A stretch of DNA of 20,105 nucleotides from positions 1 to 20,105 of the IMG/VR virus record IMGVR_UViG_3300020472_000217; one strand, written 5' to 3'. The DNA comes from a virus. Each line of letters begins with the position of its first letter. Position 1 is the first letter of the stretch. The translations under genes were made by a program, and so were the position numbers. Below the pieces are notes generated by a model that saw nothing but the letters and a program-made list of their open reading frames with translations, was not told the DNA's origin and made no database searches. This document shows, piece by piece, positions 7,054-16,050 of the stretch.

Positions 7054-8446
7054 TAAGAATAGAGTCTTTACGCAACTTCAACTCAGTTACAAGACGTGTT
7101 TCTGTCAGGGAATGAATAACTTCCGTTATAATATACCTGCCACTATATCGCCTATCTAATTCGCCTCCATCCCCTGCACCCTTTACGTTTGCAGGTACTT
7201 GTAATTCTAATCCATAACCAACATATAGGTCCAAATTTCCTGGAACTCTTAATGTTAGCTGTAGTTGATTAAGTGATTGTTCTCTCATATGCTTATATGC
7301 TTGCAACTCTGCAAGTTGTTCATATGATGCCATAGTATTAAAACTATTCTTTGGATCAAAGTTTTGATTAGGTAGAGAACAATATCTAATTCTTTTTGGT
7401 GTCTGTAATGCTATTTGAGTCTCTCTATCCATCTGTGTAATAGGATTAACAGATTTCTTCTCATTCAAATGAGACATCTTCTTCCACATTTGATTGACAC
7501 TATATTGAATTGCTGGATCTTTTGTATCCTTACTGAATCCAAGTTTACTTGATGTGATACTTACTGGATCAAATCCAACACTATAACCCGCATATGTACC
7601 ATGTCTCAATCCTTCTATAACTTGTCCCTCTTCTGGATAACCAATACCAATAGTACTGAATTGATCTAATTCCTCTTGACCAACACTCTTTAACGTATGA
7701 GTGTATCGATATAGTTTTGCTTTACCACTAACATCATCCGTAGCCTTTACATTATGCTGCTGTTGAATATCTTCAATCATCTTATCCCATGACTTAGCAT
7801 GAAATCCTAATGCATTCTCAAAGAATTGGAATCCATTCTGAAGAGTACCACCTTTAGGTGCTTTTCTAATACTACGATCAAGTATCCACCTAATAAGAGT
7901 AGCAGGTCTCCAATGACTTGCTATAAATGAATGTTTTGTAAGGGTTTGTTCAGCAAATACTCTTTTCTTAGTAGATACAAACCTCTTATCTCTAAGAACA
8001 GTCTTAATAATCTCAGAAGTTTCTGTCTTATTATTGAATATTACATCAGAACTACCAAAGATATCAATAGATTCATTCTTAATATGCTCTACACTAAAGC
8101 ATTTAATTTTAAACAGTTGGTTGCTTTGACTTGCATTTACTCTATCAAATATACCAAATGATCTAAACCAATAAGTCCTATCAATAATAGAAGTTTCAAT
8201 ATCCAACTTAAAGAGTTCAGTACCAGTCATAGTACCAATCAAACCAGCAGCATCTTCAAATATAAACTCTGCTTCAATAGTTGGTCTATTAATCTCATTA
8301 TAGATCAACCATCCTCTACAAAACTGAACTAAGTTAAAAGCACGTTCTGGACCTTCTAATCGTTTACCATTTCTATACATTGATAATCGATAGGTTGCTT
8401 CACCTGGACTAGATGCTAATAACGATCCTTCTTTTAATTTTGCCAT
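7049..8446 (-). CDS. 27: Baseplate hub protein, gp27-like
   Basis: This 465-residue protein occupies the hub position, between the tape-measure-like genes and the gp5 spike. It has the mixed alpha/beta character of T4 gp27 (391 residues) and related phage hub proteins. Visible marks are an N-terminal beta domain (TYRLSMYRNGKRLEG; FRSFGIFDRVNASQ), a helix-rich core with the hub-like phrase FQFFENALGFHAKSWDKM (about 205-225), and a C-terminal beta domain with LRVPGNLDLYVGYGLELQVP and RYIITEVIHSLTETRLVTEL. The last resembles the C-terminal domain of phage late-control/hub proteins. The trimer forms the cup joining tail tube to spike. Its ATG overlaps the stop of the upstream gene as TAATG. Assignment rests on gene order plus overall resemblance. 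Confidence 0.72.
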   Translation of the reverse strand: MAKLKEGSLLASSPGEATYRLSMYRNGKRLEGPERAFNLVQFCRGWLIYNEINRPTIEAEFIFEDAAGLIGTMTGTELFKLDIETSIIDRTYWFRSFGIFDRVNASQSNQLFKIKCFSVEHIKNESIDIFGSSDVIFNNKTETSEIIKTVLRDKRFVSTKKRVFAEQTLTKHSFIASHWRPATLIRWILDRSIRKAPKGGTLQNGFQFFENALGFHAKSWDKMIEDIQQQHNVKATDDVSGKAKLYRYTHTLKSVGQEELDQFSTIGIGYPEEGQVIEGLRHGTYAGYSVGFDPVSITSSKLGFSKDTKDPAIQYSVNQMWKKMSHLNEKKSVNPITQMDRETQIALQTPKRIRYCSLPNQNFDPKNSFNTMASYEQLAELQAYKHMREQSLNQLQLTLRVPGNLDLYVGYGLELQVPANVKGAGDGGELDRRYSGRYIITEVIHSLTETRLVTELKLRKDSILR

Positions 8447-11400
8447 TAACCAGTACCTGCCCTACTCGCTGCATAAGATAAATTATTGCCCACACCCGCA
8501 GTTTTGGATTCAGCAACTGCCTTAGTAACAAAAGACTGTGCTGCTGCTACTTCAGAACGTACTGAAGCATTATTAGCTTCGATTGATGCCATAGTAGCTT
8601 GGACTGAGCTATTTATTTTCTCAGACAAACGGAAGGATAAGAACTCTTTCTCTCTAAGAATCTTCTGCTGCATCCTCATGGTAGATTTATCATCCTTATC
8701 TCTACCACTTGTTGAACCTTTGTTGGTCATAGAATTGACATTACTACCAGCACTTGTGTTACTAGCAGTATCATTTCTTCCAGATTTTACTGGACTATAA
8801 GCAGACTTAGCATTACTAACATTACTTCCCTGTTGACCCTGTGGCATCTGAGAAGGGAACATTGTACTACCAGATTTAAACCCACCAAATAAACCAGGTG
8901 GTTTATGAACCTGCTTCTTCTTATCAGTCATATTGGGTGATTGACCGTCAAGACCTTCTGAAGAAATTTTTGCATTAGCTTCCTTATTACCATCAGTTCT
9001 GCCGAACATATTCTTAAAGCTAACTTGATATGCAGTTCTATCTTTACCACCCTTAGAACTCTTAGTAAAGTTAGTAGCATTCGTCAAGACGTTAATTGCT
9101 GCATCATCATATCCTTGATTGGATAAAGCAGTTTGTAAATATCCGTCCTTCTGTGCATTTAATATTGCCTTCCATGATAGTGCTGAATCTGCACTAGACA
9201 TGTCTTTCTTGAATATATTAGTACTATCAATTAAATCCATCCAAGTACTTGCATTACCAAACTTACCACTAGAATTACCAAACTGATCCATCAAACTTGC
9301 TTTATTCATCCAAGATCTTGCATGTAAAGACTGCTCTAACAAACTTCCACCCTTAGTATCATTATGAATCTGTTGAGCAATCATCTGCATATTGCCAGGT
9401 GCTTGGATAGAAGAATTTTTACCGCCTCCTTGCTTTTCTTCTTTACCAGCAATACCTATATGAACATGTCCAGGATAACCATAATTATTTGGTCCTTGCT
9501 TACGTTCTTGATTGACCGCCCAAGCACCCCATTTATCGTGAACGATTTCAGTAATCTTATATGCTCCTACCTGACTGTGTAAAGTATCAGCAAGTGAATG
9601 TAACCTTTGACCTTTTTGTCCTGGTCTATAATCAGCAATATTTAATCCAAGACCTAAAGTATGTAATCCACCAGCATTTACAGGAGAATCACCTCTAGGG
9701 TTGAATCCTTCAGTATTAGCTTTCATCTTATTCCACTTATTAGCATGGAAGAATGGGTTATCCTCAACAGTAAACCCTTGGCTAAGCATTTGCTTACCAA
9801 CTCTCTTCGATGCTTCAATACCACCACCTTTAGCAGTAATACCGAGTGTTTCGGGATTAATAGGTGCACCACCAGCAGAATGTACTAATCCAGAAACACC
9901 TCCTTGCATAGCACTTTGGAGATTATCCATCATGCCTTGCATTCCACCACCACCTGTAAGGTTGTTGTAGATCCCCATAGCATTTTGCATGAGGCTTCCA
10001 GCCTTACCACCAATTAACTGGGCAATATTATTACCGTAACTACCAAAGACTTGACCTAGTTTTTGACCAAATGTTCCTTCACCTCTAAGGATATCACCAA
10101 TACCTAAACCAGTGCTAAGCCACCCTTGGGCTTTGCTTCCTGGTTTCATAAAGTTGGAAGCAACACCACCAATACCTTTTATTATATCCCAACCAGTAGC
10201 CTTACCATCTTTACCGCTACCACCACCACTAAAGAGATTGAATATACCACCAATAGAATTACCAAGTCCTTCATTACCAAATGCTGCACCTATCTGTCCA
10301 GCACCACCACCTTTAAACCAATCTCCTAATCTACCTTGCCAACCTTCAGATCCTTTAGTGAATTTTTGACCAAAGTTAGTAAACCAATTACCAGTTTGCT
10401 TTGGTGTATTGACCATATCACCAACATTACTGCTGATAGTACCTAATAATCCACCACTACTACCTTTATTCTTCTTACCACCACCAAATAAATTACCCCA
10501 ACTAAATCCTCCACCTGATTTACCACCACCAGATTTACCACCGCCACCCCATCCTTTACCACTTAACCAACTTCCTAGTCCAAAATGCTTACTTTGGCTA
10601 TTCAATCTTGGCATTCTAATGTCAAATCCATTAGAAGAAGCAACACGCATGTTTGCTTCCATCAATCCAGGATTTCTGCGAGTAGCAGCATTATCAACAG
10701 GTATTACAAAGTTTTCACCAGTATTTTTTCTTGCAACATATTCCAATCCATGACCAACAAAGTCAGGAGAAGCACCACTTTGTGATCCTAAAGAAACAGG
10801 ATATCCACTATTAGGACCATTAATCCATCCACCTGTTGCTCTCTGAGGAAGAAGTTTTAAAACATTTCCACCATATTCATATGAAGATCCATCATCTCTA
10901 GTACCTGTTCTGCCAAATGGATCAGGATCATCTGCTACATCAGAAGCATAATCCATGCCTTTTTTAGCAACATAGGCAGTACCTGCCACCATTGTAGTAA
11001 CTTGGAGTGCTTTACCCCATTTACCACCCATCCAACGCATTCCTCTGCGTTTTGCTAAACCTGTTTTAAATCTAGTTAATGAATTATAAAAGGTAGATAA
11101 GATCCATTTAAAATCCTTTAAAGTCCTACCAACTCTAAGTGGATTTAACCATCTCAATCCTAAGAATATTGCTCCCAACCCAACGAAGGTTTTCATAAAC
11201 CCACCTATTCGTTGAGCCCACGTGGCATCTTCTCTTAAGAGATTATATAACCCGTCTACAGCTCCCGTAAGATTCTTTGTCAGGAATTTTGCTACCCACG
11301 TAAATATCTTATCAAGCGTCCTAAGTGTATTTGCAACTGCTTCTTGATTCTTAGGATCAGAAAGCCATTTTAATATTGGTCTCAGTACCAACAACTTAAA

Positions 11401-11736
11401 GAGACCAGAAAGCATCTTCAATAAACCTTCCCAGAATTTAGGAGCAGTCCTACCTATAAAATTCTTAGCGAATTTAGCTGATTCTACCTTCTGTGGTTTA
11501 GTATATCTTGGAGTGAACTTTATCCTATTCTTAGCATCCGCAAGACGTTTAAGTTCAATCTTTTTAATATCAGAAACGATTCCAGCAATACTATTAACAG
11601 TAGTACCTAAACGATTGAGTGCACCTACCTGTGCTACTTGTAATTGAGTTGACTTATTATTTCCACCAGCAGCTGCGACACCTGTAACAGATACCATCTT
11701 ATAGAGATTTAATTTTCTGTTCTTCTTTATTGCCAT
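8446..11736 (-). CDS. Large tail protein, tape-measure-like (paralogue 2), with a degenerate M15-like peptidase region
   Basis: This 1096-residue protein has tape-measure traits: a basic N-terminus, hydrophobic helical segments (about 105-125 and 179-200), a glycine-rich middle with KSGGGKSGGG repeats, and a GGWINGPNSGYPVSL...GENFVIPVDN block (about 300-350) common in phage tape measures. Residues 692-702 (HTLGLGLNIAD) and 757-759 (HVH) look like the H-x6-D...H-x-H zinc layout of M15 peptidases, but the aspartate position is Asn699, so it may be inactive. The N-terminal 200 residues resemble those of the upstream gene product. The ATG follows the preceding TAA with no gap. A possible late box is at 11787-11794. 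It could alternatively be a second tail-lumen or baseplate protein. Confidence 0.7.
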   Translation of the reverse strand: MAIKKNRKLNLYKMVSVTGVAAAGGNNKSTQLQVAQVGALNRLGTTVNSIAGIVSDIKKIELKRLADAKNRIKFTPRYTKPQKVESAKFAKNFIGRTAPKFWEGLLKMLSGLFKLLVLRPILKWLSDPKNQEAVANTLRTLDKIFTWVAKFLTKNLTGAVDGLYNLLREDATWAQRIGGFMKTFVGLGAIFLGLRWLNPLRVGRTLKDFKWILSTFYNSLTRFKTGLAKRRGMRWMGGKWGKALQVTTMVAGTAYVAKKGMDYASDVADDPDPFGRTGTRDDGSSYEYGGNVLKLLPQRATGGWINGPNSGYPVSLGSQSGASPDFVGHGLEYVARKNTGENFVIPVDNAATRRNPGLMEANMRVASSNGFDIRMPRLNSQSKHFGLGSWLSGKGWGGGGKSGGGKSGGGFSWGNLFGGGKKNKGSSGGLLGTISSNVGDMVNTPKQTGNWFTNFGQKFTKGSEGWQGRLGDWFKGGGAGQIGAAFGNEGLGNSIGGIFNLFSGGGSGKDGKATGWDIIKGIGGVASNFMKPGSKAQGWLSTGLGIGDILRGEGTFGQKLGQVFGSYGNNIAQLIGGKAGSLMQNAMGIYNNLTGGGGMQGMMDNLQSAMQGGVSGLVHSAGGAPINPETLGITAKGGGIEASKRVGKQMLSQGFTVEDNPFFHANKWNKMKANTEGFNPRGDSPVNAGGLHTLGLGLNIADYRPGQKGQRLHSLADTLHSQVGAYKITEIVHDKWGAWAVNQERKQGPNNYGYPGHVHIGIAGKEEKQGGGKNSSIQAPGNMQMIAQQIHNDTKGGSLLEQSLHARSWMNKASLMDQFGNSSGKFGNASTWMDLIDSTNIFKKDMSSADSALSWKAILNAQKDGYLQTALSNQGYDDAAINVLTNATNFTKSSKGGKDRTAYQVSFKNMFGRTDGNKEANAKISSEGLDGQSPNMTDKKKQVHKPPGLFGGFKSGSTMFPSQMPQGQQGSNVSNAKSAYSPVKSGRNDTASNTSAGSNVNSMTNKGSTSGRDKDDKSTMRMQQKILREKEFLSFRLSEKINSSVQATMASIEANNASVRSEVAAAQSFVTKAVAESKTAGVGNNLSYAASRAGTG

Positions 11737-14700
11737 TTATTTACCACACCTCTGACAGGGTTGCCTAACTGGTACTCTCACAACATTATTTATTGGGACA
11801 GGCTTAGCTATTGGTACTAACTTATTAGCAATCATAGGTACTGGAATAAACTCCATCTTAGTCTGTAAAGCATACTGCTGAGACATTTCTGATTGTGAAC
11901 CAGTTCTAGTACTATCCATCGATTTTATTTGTGATGGGAATTGACCTAATAATCTTGGATCAACACCCAATTCTGGAGCAAGTTCTTGTAGACCTTGCAT
12001 CATTGCCATAGGTCCACCTCCAGACACCATGCCTGTGATTGCCTTAAATATGCCACCAAATCCCATCTCATTGGCAATACTACCAAATAATCCCATAGGA
12101 CTAAATGTCCCTCCAGGCATACCACCATCACCCAATCCAAATAATGAAGACAATCCTGGTATATTTCCTATACCTGGTATTGCTGAAACAATATTACCTA
12201 ATCCTGGAACCTTGTTCATCACATCACCAATATTACCCAAGAACTTGGTTAATCCAGATGGTAACTTACCTTGTAATAATCCTAATCCTGAAGATAATGC
12301 TCCTGAGACTCCTCCATCAAGGAATCCCATAGCAACTTTACCAAATCCTGTAGCTTGGAATTTATCAATACTTGATGCTAATGCACCACTACCAAAATGA
12401 GTAGAGAAACCATGTGCAGCACCAATACCAGAACTTATAGCACCTAATATATCACCTTGAGATAACGAGTATATACCTTTTGCAGCATGTATAAACGGTG
12501 CAGCAGCAGGGAATACTATTGGTGCAACTGTCATTAATATGCTACCAAGCGGTGATTGCATCACACCACTTACTAGACTAGAAACTCCGTTTACAACACC
12601 ACTAACTGCCTTAGATATACCCCCAACAACACCAGATACTGCCTTGGATATACCTTTAAAAATCTTACCAAAGAAGAATTGTTTATCAGGACTTTGTAGT
12701 CTTGCTGGTATCCTTCCACCAAATTCTTTCTTTCTGTTGGTCTTAATTGGACTTTTAGCTCCCCAACTAAATGGATTCCACCAAGTAGTCTTCTTCTTAT
12801 TCGCTTCTTTATCGAGATGCTTTCCATAAGTATCAGCACCATAACCAGGTGCTAATGGTCCTATACCAGATGTACTTTTAGGAGTAATCTTCTTATTTTC
12901 AAATACGTCTAAGAAGTCCCACCACTGATTCTGATATTCTGGTTTTGAAGCATGATCTTCTCTTATATTAACGTTACCATGCCTATTCTTCTGTCTGTCA
13001 GCAGTAGAGGAAGGAGTGTATCCTATATTATAAGGTGATGATTGATCCATAAGATCAATTTTCGCCTCTTCACTCATTCCATATTTTTCTATTAACTCAT
13101 CGCCATATAATATACCAGGATTTTCTATTGCTAATTGTTTTCTATCATTATATTTCTTAAGTGCCTTACTATACGCTCTACCACCAGAACCTGTACTAGG
13201 AAAATCACTTCTCTTAGGTTTTGTATGTGTTTTACCTCCTACTGTAAACTGATTCTTACCAACAGTAGTTTTTGATTTACCTTTTCCAAGAGTCTCTTTA
13301 AAATCAATATTAAGTTTCTTAATTACTGCCTCAGCCCCAGACCTGAGACCTTGGATCATTTCACCAACTACAAATCTTCCTTCTATCTTGGCAAGTTCTA
13401 TCGATCCTTGAGAAGCACCAACAACAGAACTACCTTTTTGACCTTTCTGTTCACCCTCAATTTGACTACCAAGTGCATCACCACCTGTTAAATTACCTTC
13501 TTGAGTAGTAGGTTGGGATGCTTGCCAAGAATCTTTAAAGAAAGCTTTGTGTAGTAACGGGAACGTGTTCCCCGTTAAATTGAGCATCCAGGCAATATTG
13601 GGTATTTCCTTACCCATCATTAATGATAAAGGACCCAACATGCCCTTCATCATTAACTTCATGGCTCCCCAAATCTTACCAGAACCCCAAACCTTAGCTA
13701 ACCACCCAGGCGGTTTTTCAGGGAAATCTGGTATTTTGAACTTAGGAATACCCGTGTAGAACTTAGTCCACCCAGTTCTTATCCATACAAGGACGTTTTT
13801 AAGCTGGTTAAAGACACCTTTTAGGTCAGTTAATAATTTCTGCCCAGCTTCACCCCAGCCTCCACCTTTAAATCCAATCCACAACAATTCACCAAAATAT
13901 TCACCTAAACTCATTCCCAATAATGTGCCAAGACCAGGAAGAGGTATAAATGAACCTAATGCACCACCAACAGCAGTACCAGCAGTTTTAAATAGTACTT
14001 TATCCCAAGGATCACCCTGTAACAAAGAAAATATCGCAGTTAGAATACTACCAAAAACAGGTATCCTACCAAACGTGTTCTGGAATGCTTTTCCAAGTAA
14101 TTTTACATTATTTTTACCTAAAAACTTAAGTGCACCACGACCAAAGGATCGTTGTACACCCTTGCCCATGACGCTTCCTGTAGGAGCAGTTCTTGGAGAT
14201 AATCCACTCGTTTTTGGGGGTGGTTTAAATGCAGAAGGGTTTTTATTTGCTGCTCTCCGTACTTTGGCTAGTGCTTCTGCTCTGGTTGCACCATCCTTAA
14301 TTGCTTGTCGATATAACCTATCACCATTCTTACCATACTTCTTTAAAAGAGGATTATTATTAGACCTTACTTTATTTTTTAGATTGGTTTTTTGATTTTT
14401 TCTATTATTTGCTTTAGTATCATTACGTCTCTGTAGAGGATCTTTTTTATCCCAAACAAAGTCCAACATGGACAATATTGATCCCATTAATCCAAATGGG
14501 TTTAAAAGTGCCCCTAAGCCTATTATCCCTAAGACAAATTTACCTAGTCCAGTTATTCTACTAGCAAATGATCCATTTGGATCTGTTAATTGGGCAAATC
14601 CATCCATTATGCCCTTTCCTATTACAAACCCAAATGCCTTTTTAAGTGCCTTCCAGATTACAGTAATTTTGTATATAAAAAGTTCTAATTGTGGTTGACT

Positions 14701-15156
14701 GCTCGGATCTGCCACCCATTTCATAATGGCAAGAGTGGACATCCATGTCCCTAGCTTGACCATCCATCCAAATACTGCCATTAAAGGACCATCCAGTCCC
14801 AATGACTTAATTAGTCCATCAATACCCTTCTTCGTATCGGAATCTGGCCCTTTCTTGGCCATTTTATTAGTAATATCACCTTTCTGGAAAAGATTTTGAT
14901 TCTCTACCTCTTCCTCTCTCTTTCTATCCGCTTCTCTCTTTGCTCTTTTACGTTCAGCGATTGCTTGCAGTTTATCATTCTTCAAACCTGCAGAGTATAT
15001 CGCTTGTAAGTCTCCTACTGTTGCACCAAGTGCAGTAACAGTAATTCCAAGACGATTTGTGGCTAATAAAGATGCCCTTCCAGCATTTTGCGACATTGGT
15101 GCTTCGCTGTCCTTGCCAGGTGGGTTAATAAACTTGTATGCACTTAATTTAGCCAC
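11737..15156 (-). CDS. Large tail protein, probable tape measure (paralogue 1)
   Basis: This 1139-residue protein begins at a GTG (15156), chosen because MAKLSAYKFINPPGKD matches the style of neighbouring starts and the codon overlaps the end of the chaperone frame as GTGGCTAA. Domains in order: a TNRLGITVTALGATVGDLQAI helix (about 33-55), a highly charged helix (AERKRAKREADRKREEEVEN, near 67-86), a hydrophobic helical block (120-230), a basic low-complexity region, more hydrophobic segments with LxGDPWDK, a polar middle, and a Gly/Leu/Ile-rich C-terminal third. It ends VRQPCQRCGK, a C-x-x-C pair at 1134/1137. Position straight after the gp26 chaperone unit and the transmembrane-like segments fit a tape measure. 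T4 gp29 (590 residues) is much shorter, so homology to it is not claimed. Confidence 0.75.
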   Translation of the reverse strand: MAKLSAYKFINPPGKDSEAPMSQNAGRASLLATNRLGITVTALGATVGDLQAIYSAGLKNDKLQAIAERKRAKREADRKREEEVENQNLFQKGDITNKMAKKGPDSDTKKGIDGLIKSLGLDGPLMAVFGWMVKLGTWMSTLAIMKWVADPSSQPQLELFIYKITVIWKALKKAFGFVIGKGIMDGFAQLTDPNGSFASRITGLGKFVLGIIGLGALLNPFGLMGSILSMLDFVWDKKDPLQRRNDTKANNRKNQKTNLKNKVRSNNNPLLKKYGKNGDRLYRQAIKDGATRAEALAKVRRAANKNPSAFKPPPKTSGLSPRTAPTGSVMGKGVQRSFGRGALKFLGKNNVKLLGKAFQNTFGRIPVFGSILTAIFSLLQGDPWDKVLFKTAGTAVGGALGSFIPLPGLGTLLGMSLGEYFGELLWIGFKGGGWGEAGQKLLTDLKGVFNQLKNVLVWIRTGWTKFYTGIPKFKIPDFPEKPPGWLAKVWGSGKIWGAMKLMMKGMLGPLSLMMGKEIPNIAWMLNLTGNTFPLLHKAFFKDSWQASQPTTQEGNLTGGDALGSQIEGEQKGQKGSSVVGASQGSIELAKIEGRFVVGEMIQGLRSGAEAVIKKLNIDFKETLGKGKSKTTVGKNQFTVGGKTHTKPKRSDFPSTGSGGRAYSKALKKYNDRKQLAIENPGILYGDELIEKYGMSEEAKIDLMDQSSPYNIGYTPSSTADRQKNRHGNVNIREDHASKPEYQNQWWDFLDVFENKKITPKSTSGIGPLAPGYGADTYGKHLDKEANKKKTTWWNPFSWGAKSPIKTNRKKEFGGRIPARLQSPDKQFFFGKIFKGISKAVSGVVGGISKAVSGVVNGVSSLVSGVMQSPLGSILMTVAPIVFPAAAPFIHAAKGIYSLSQGDILGAISSGIGAAHGFSTHFGSGALASSIDKFQATGFGKVAMGFLDGGVSGALSSGLGLLQGKLPSGLTKFLGNIGDVMNKVPGLGNIVSAIPGIGNIPGLSSLFGLGDGGMPGGTFSPMGLFGSIANEMGFGGIFKAITGMVSGGGPMAMMQGLQELAPELGVDPRLLGQFPSQIKSMDSTRTGSQSEMSQQYALQTKMEFIPVPMIANKLVPIAKPVPINNVVRVPVRQPCQRCGK
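11787..11794 (-). promoter_or_regulatory. Possible late promoter (AATAAATA) inside the end of paralogue 1
   Basis: Read on the minus strand this is AATAAATA, one base from the late box and 50 bases before the ATG of the second large tail gene. It lies within coding sequence (PINNVV), so it may be chance in AT-rich DNA. Confidence 0.3.
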
Positions 15157-15346
15157 TCGTCTTAGTTTCTTGCTCCTTCATTCTACGTTCTTCTTCTTTT
15201 AAGAATTCCATCAACAAATTGAGATAGAGTTCTTTTTCCCAAGGCATGAGATTGTCAATATACTCAATATTCCACTTATGATGGTGGATTAGAGCGAAAT
15301 TGGTTTCATAATAAGTACGGAGATTAGTGTGAAGAAGGGCTAACCG
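15149..15346 (-). CDS. gp51-position extension read by -1 frameshift from gp26 (65 aa)
   Basis: In the -1 frame relative to gp26, an open frame continues from the slippery site for 65 codons to a TAA at 15149-15151. It begins RLALLHTNLRTYYETN, continues with FALIHHHKWNIEYIDNLMPW, and ends in a charged helix (FLKEEERRMKEQETKTSG). The phrase N-L-M-P-W-E-K-E-L-Y resembles the second-frame segments of phage tail assembly chaperones. No ATG occurs until codon 34 and that one lacks a Shine-Dalgarno, so independent initiation is unlikely. Fusion through the heptamer would give about 300 residues: gp26 residues 1-235 plus these 65. It fills the slot between gp26 and the tape measure, as the T part of lambda gpGT does. 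The last 8 bases overlap the tape-measure start, suggesting coupling. Confidence 0.72.
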   Translation of the reverse strand, partial: RLALLHTNLRTYYETNFALIHHHKWNIEYIDNLMPWEKELYLNLLMEFLKEEERRMKEQETKTSG

Positions 15347-16050
15347 AAAAAAGCCGCTAATCCTTCTAATTTCACCTCACCAGTTTTCCCAGTTTTAGGA
15401 TTTTTCACATTTAACGTATGTGCCAATTTGGGCATAGTTTCAAAGAAATCTTGAATTGCCTTAAATTGAGCAGATGTTAATTGATCCAAAAATTCAAGCA
15501 TTTCAGGTTCTGGAAGGGATGTACAATCATGTACTTCTTCTTCAGTAGCAATTTGCTCAATACAACCTGCTGCCATTTTGAAAACTTGATCAACTCCTGG
15601 TTGTTCACCAGCAAAGTTCATTTCAACGAAATTTTCAAGACTTGGATACTTCATAGTAACCATTATTCCTTCATCAAGCTTAAGTTCCTTTTTATGACCT
15701 TTGGTCTTTTGAACCTTAATGTCTTCTAAAGGAATATTCACTTCAACTTCTGTTTCCTCATCATCGGGACAAACCACAGAAACATCAACGCTTTCACCAA
15801 CGGACTTAGTTCTCACTTGAAGGAAAACATACTCAATATCAAATGTTGCCAATTCTTCAACATCTTTAATATCAGTACATCCTCTGATAATATCTTTAAT
15901 AGCGTTAATCATGGTAGAAGAATCGCCAGTTTCAGTTGCAATAAGAAGACTTTTTTCCTCTTTTACAAGAAATGGACGAAAATTCACAGTTCTGCCGTCA
16001 GACGGCAATTTCATTTTATAACGAGGGGCGTTTAATTTAGGTAATGCCAT
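15340..16050 (-). CDS. 26: gp26-like baseplate hub subunit / tail assembly chaperone
   Basis: I start this at the ATG at 16050 (MALPKLNAPRYKMKLPSDGR), not the in-frame TTG nine bases upstream, because MALPKL openings are typical. The 236-residue product is close to T4 gp26 (208). It begins with two beta strands and RPFLVKEEKSLLIA, then has a helical segment (MINAIKDIIRGC) and an acidic strand-rich middle. The C-terminal helical half, FLDQLTSAQFKAIQDFFETMP, resembles tail assembly chaperones. T4 gp26 is assigned to hub assembly. By position this is the G-type chaperone preceding the tape measure. Its last codons GCT TTT TTC GGT TAG carry the slippery heptamer. A CTAAATA late box is at 16071-16077. 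There is no strong Shine-Dalgarno. Confidence 0.85.
   Translation of the reverse strand: MALPKLNAPRYKMKLPSDGRTVNFRPFLVKEEKSLLIATETGDSSTMINAIKDIIRGCTDIKDVEELATFDIEYVFLQVRTKSVGESVDVSVVCPDDEETEVEVNIPLEDIKVQKTKGHKKELKLDEGIMVTMKYPSLENFVEMNFAGEQPGVDQVFKMAAGCIEQIATEEEVHDCTSLPEPEMLEFLDQLTSAQFKAIQDFFETMPKLAHTLNVKNPKTGKTGEVKLEGLAAFFG
15346..15365 (-). promoter_or_regulatory. Programmed -1 frameshift site: T TTT TTC with upstream Shine-Dalgarno-like AAGGA
   Basis: On the minus strand the heptamer T TTT TTC (15352 to 15346) fits X XXY YYZ in the gp26 frame (GCT TTT TTC), three codons from the gp26 stop. AAGGA at 15361-15365 ends eight bases before it. This is close to the spacing at which internal Shine-Dalgarno sequences stimulate -1 slippage in bacteria (known for dnaX). 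A weak six-pair stem (GGTTAG with CTAATC) directly follows with no spacer and may not matter. The -1 frame is open for 65 codons. Confidence 0.75.

Follow-up and report, generated by a model that had tools for sequence, protein, structure and literature searches.

The gp26 gene of this T4-like cyanophage very probably ends in a site of programmed −1 ribosomal frameshifting, as judged from its sequence and that of its relatives. We hold with high confidence that gp26 and the overlapping −1 frame make up a single tail assembly chaperone gene, from which frameshifting would give a short and a long form. The window, by which we mean the whole 20,105-base stretch analyzed (IMG/VR viral record IMGVR_UViG_3300020472_000217, positions 1 to 20,105), covers the tail and baseplate region of the phage. 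This assignment comes from the homologues around gp26, namely those of tail tube, head closure, baseplate wedge, tube cap and baseplate hub/lysozyme. The gp26 homologue itself (15340..16050, minus strand), the predicted short chaperone form, has 236 residues and matches PF12322 T4_baseplate (E 7.7e-76) and phrog_150 'baseplate hub' (E 9.5e-86).

The initial annotation had proposed the frameshift from a handful of local features, and each of these holds in the window. The last codons of gp26 read GAA GGA TTA GCG GCT TTT TTC GGT TAG, which places the slippery heptamer T TTT TTC in the gp26 frame at 15346..15352 on the minus strand. A Shine-Dalgarno (SD)-like AAGGA, a possible stimulator, stands at 15361..15365 (minus strand) and ends 8 nt 5′ of the heptamer. 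From the heptamer, the −1 frame stays open for 67 codons counting both slippery ones, of which 65 are new. This extension (15149..15346, minus strand) runs from CGG at 15346 to the GGC ending at 15152 and closes with TAA at 15151-15149. After a tandem slip, the long product would comprise 235 + 65 = 300 residues (15149..16050, minus strand), with the peptide ...AAFFRLALLHTNLR across its junction. The TAA overlaps by 8 nt the GTG start (15156) of the next ORF, of 1139 aa. A usable start had been reported missing from the −1 frame, and its earliest ATG, GTG or TTG in the window is indeed the codon for the Met of LMPWEK, 35 codons in.

The genes of the window contain 30 in-frame X XXY YYZ heptamers among 6019 codon positions. 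A −1 frame of at least 65 codons is opened by one of the 30, that of gp26, and by 0.6% of all codon positions. We compared the locus with 80 close and 80 further environmental loci, one of them common to both sets, together with annotated phages. T TTT TTN is found at the gp26 end in 171 of the 172 loci with a gp26 domain, and it is T TTT TTC in 168. Because the motif is kept so widely in homologous loci, a chance origin of the heptamer is ruled out. Set against constraint on the amino acids alone, its conservation has a log10 P of about −19 for 47 representatives below 75% identity and about −38 for 104 representatives below 85%, values that assume independent representatives and hence overstate the strength of the result. 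A sequencing error in the window was considered as well and rejected, as the identical junction recurs in hundreds of records. Beyond cyanophages, T TTT TTN is present in phages of Pelagibacter, Pseudomonas, Vibrio (KVP40), Sinorhizobium, Rhizobium, Agrobacterium, Stenotrophomonas and Pseudoalteromonas.

Outside the cyanophages the last base of the heptamer varies, being T TTT TTA in Pseudoalteromonas phage XG4 (L208:2230-2244), T TTT TTG in Rhizobium-type phages (L012, L190) and T TTT TTT in Pelagibacter-type phages (L006, L183). One Stenotrophomonas phage (L187, 1740-1760), a 99% relative of L186, has five T rather than six at the slippery run; this is likely a sequencing error and possibly a real variant. 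Elsewhere in the window, a 184-aa ORF (2216-2770) has a T TTT TTA heptamer at codons 181-182, a few codons 5′ of its stop, and there the −1 frame stays open over 49 codons.

Since Phe-Phe is itself a conserved dipeptide, we chose its codons as the test. The dipeptide occupies the gp26 end in 104 of 106 representatives (below 85% nucleotide identity), written TTT TTC in 102 and TTT TTT in 2. The heptamer could in principle be an accident of codon usage on a dipeptide conserved purely as protein, given that TTT is the commoner Phe codon (0.70), yet there is next to no chance of this. Aligned on the heptamer, TTT is used in 101/101 and TTC in 100/100, and most nearby codons share one synonym in 40-80%. 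The wobble bases stay fixed while the preceding residue changes among Ala, Ser (by AGT or TCT), Asp, Asn and Gly, its third base being T every time. The next Phe-Phe upstream in gp26, which is also conserved and serves as an internal control, has the reverse codon order, TTC TTT, in 74 of 100. T4 gp26 likewise keeps Phe-Phe in its tail, where the codons read GAG TTC TTT, without the heptamer. Protein-only conservation was rejected on the strength of this codon control. A different kind of slippage, by RNA polymerase on the run of six consecutive T, would add a base to some mRNAs and yield the identical fusion protein. We regard this as very improbable, as the run is fixed at six T followed nearly always by C, in X XXY YYZ register, and the SD-like element sits at a spacing known for ribosomal sites. 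Established transcriptional slippage usually takes place on longer runs.

The remaining rival takes the second frame as a small gene in its own right, gp51, with its own start and translationally coupled to the gp26 stop. Most GenBank records annotate it in this way, and many relatives do have an ATG a few nucleotides past or overlapping the gp26 stop, among them S-PM2, S-CRM01, KVP40 and RHph_N34. More generally, an ATG, GTG or TTG falls among −1 codons 1 to 16 in 81 of 101 representatives, often just past the gp26 stop. The −1 frame itself is coding. Past the heptamer its pN/pS is 0.21, compared with 0.96 for the frame of gp26 and 2.38 for the remaining one; its peptide matches phrog_634 'baseplate hub assembly catalyst' (E 2.7e-28) and is present in 488 phage records. 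Against an independent start, six loci (the window, S-CAM8, P-SSM7 and environmental L017, L021 and L096) have no ATG, GTG or TTG before −1 codon 33, and this start-less stretch is still under purifying selection, with a pN/pS of 0.14. Translation of these codons must come from upstream, most simply via the heptamer. Public annotation begins gp51 at the ATG behind the stop in S-PM2, truncates it to 31 residues in P-SSM7 and lacks it in S-CAM8. The SD-like element, about 10 nt from the heptamer, is too distant from the ATGs after the stop to serve them, and T4 and 44RR have the −1 domain only as a fusion. A separate gene is thus very unlikely, and we favor frameshifting; in those relatives with an ATG near the gp26 stop, reinitiation may add a short free product. 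The initial proposal of −1 frameshifting survives all the sequence tests put to it.

We envision that most ribosomes would stop at the gp26 TAG and release the 236-residue short form. A minority would shift by −1 on T TTT TTC, with both Phe tRNAs re-pairing on TTT TTT, and go on with CGG into a 300-residue form bearing a 65-residue, mostly helical C-terminal domain. The helical character of the extension is predicted with modest confidence (pLDDT 75). Slippage is perhaps aided by the SD-like element 8-10 nt upstream and by the nearby stop. In most relatives the element is GAGG or GGAGG with a spacing of 10 nt (8-10 nt overall). It also encodes a conserved Leu-Glu-Gly, and this protein constraint alone may account for its conservation. 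A search for downstream RNA structure gave no consensus structure in 20 sequences and a single-strand fold with a z of −1.6, and no Rfam family matched in the window.

The whole PF12322 domain is present in T4 gp26 as well as in T4 gp51, and gp51 then has about 48 more residues, which match the −1 extension described here. A profile of the extension matches residues 200-244 of T4 gp51 (E 2e-5) and 196-248 of 44RR gp51 (E 2e-8), compared with 0.05 for the best chance match, and also matches the gp51 end in Enterobacter phage EC-F2. In T4 gp51, the matched C-terminus directly follows the PF12322 domain, so the predicted long form has the same domain order as the single-frame T4 protein. By sequence, T4 gp51 amounts to the long product encoded permanently in a single frame, and T4 gp26 corresponds to the short one. 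The pair of proteins for which T4 has two genes would come, in this phage, from a single gene through a frameshift. The initial annotation had suggested a link to the T4 scheme; this is correct and goes further than proposed, as gp51 joins a gp26-like domain in frame with the domain found here in the −1 frame. Both T4 proteins are listed among the chaperones of hub assembly, gp51 being required yet absent from the particle (PMC3004832).

The T4 arrangement differs in that its two genes are separate and divergent and have no heptamer, whereas here a −1 shift on one gene would give both forms. The genes are divergent in 44RR as well and overlap head to tail in EC-F2. KVP40, a Vibrio phage of the Straboviridae like T4, has a single gene with T TTT TTC. 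A tree for the direction of the T4 change had poor support, with long branches meeting, and gave no polarity. One possibility, which we put forward tentatively, is that the frameshifted single gene is ancestral in the wider T4-like phages, that the T4 branch exchanged the frameshift for a duplicated gene with a permanent long copy, and that the Ackermannviridae keep the −1 domain with another, non-heptamer slip around ATTTTCATTTAATTTTTG.

Homologues that had lost the heptamer while starting the second frame on their own had been named in the initial annotation as speaking against frameshifting. None appeared in cyanophages or most other groups; the heptamer-less exceptions are the Ackermannviridae and Vibrio phage K445. 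In the Ackermannviridae (Kuttervirus and relatives), gp26 ends GAG ATT TTC ATT TAA, without a heptamer, and the −1 frame is open, conserved and encodes the same domain (extension profile E 5e-4). In Kuttervirus SP1 (L013:1780-1990) and L191-L205, the ...YSIFEISESMPW... domain in the −1 frame begins upstream of any ATG. The stretch ATTTTCATTTAATTTTTGAAATTGATTTA is almost invariant among Ackermannviridae relatives about 71% identical, which suggests a different slip site in this family. K445 has an ATG over the gp26 stop. Either another slip site or reinitiation may operate in the Ackermannviridae and K445.

With respect to function, analogy with lambda G/GT and T4 gp26/gp51 suggests that both forms would coat a tail or hub component, probably the tape measure, and pass it on, and that neither would be part of the finished virion. 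Slippage and its efficiency, the chaperone role and the partner are what we infer, the function as a tail assembly chaperone pair being drawn from T4 gp26/gp51 and from the lambda G/GT layout. The locus resembles lambda gpG/gpGT, and also P2 E/E+E′, in having a short chaperone, a slippery site near its 3′ end, a −1 extension and a presumed tape measure adjoining. Unlike lambda, whose slippery site is G-rich, the site here is T TTT TTC; at 236 aa the short form is also the larger of the two, and the likeness is one of layout, with no sequence relationship shown. Compared by fold, the gp26 model matched no solved chaperone significantly; 2ob9, the tail assembly chaperone of HK97, appeared only at E 1.8 with a probability of 0.30, and a sequence search of solved structures returned nothing at E 0.001. 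Among predicted viral structures, the model matches only other gp26-like proteins. A similar locus in phage Adele (Vandenendeviridae/Andersonviridae) has a conserved open −1 frame, mis-annotated as a separate hypothetical gene, and a T-rich GTTTTT at the end of the short form (PMC12846349); it differs in belonging to other phage families and in its motif.

Novelty of the T4 link is not supported, as earlier work covers the same idea (PMC10885494, PMC12846349). Vladimirov, Gautam and Davidson (2022, Virology 566:9) assigned the T4-like chaperone genes, according to the papers that cite them (PMC10885494, PMC12846349). Of these, the PRFect paper cites Vladimirov et al. 2022 for the statement that some T4-like phages, in place of frameshifting, have a short gene and a long, fused one (PMC10885494), and the 2025 phage Adele paper credits the same authors with poly-T signals for frameshifting in the chaperone genes of T4-like phages (PMC12846349). 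Going by these citing accounts, the overall idea is largely known and the general principle already published. Our literature search returned no open paper on this particular site in cyanophages. What the codon control, the start-less test and the survey of loci add is further support, not a new principle.

Beyond the single locus, these comparisons correct the annotation of hundreds of marine T4-like phages. What is recorded there as a small 'gp51' gene is mostly the distal half of a frameshifted one, a half that some records truncate or omit. One protein family that reaches the same pair by two routes, a frameshift or a duplicated gene, offers a clear sequence contrast, by which the need for a fixed short:long ratio can be tested.

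The 1139-aa ORF that follows (11737..15156, minus strand, GTG start) had been called the tape measure. It does adjoin the −1 frame, and synteny alone makes it a candidate; its best PHROG is phrog_790 'endolysin' (E 2.6e-123), and the match to phrog_5493 'tail length tape measure protein' is weak (E 0.0047). The ORFs at 8446-11736 and 11737-15156 are alike over their first ~230 residues (BLASTP E 5e-7), and both match 'endolysin' PHROGs. The pair, both large and situated after gp26, appear to be related tail proteins, either one a candidate tape measure.
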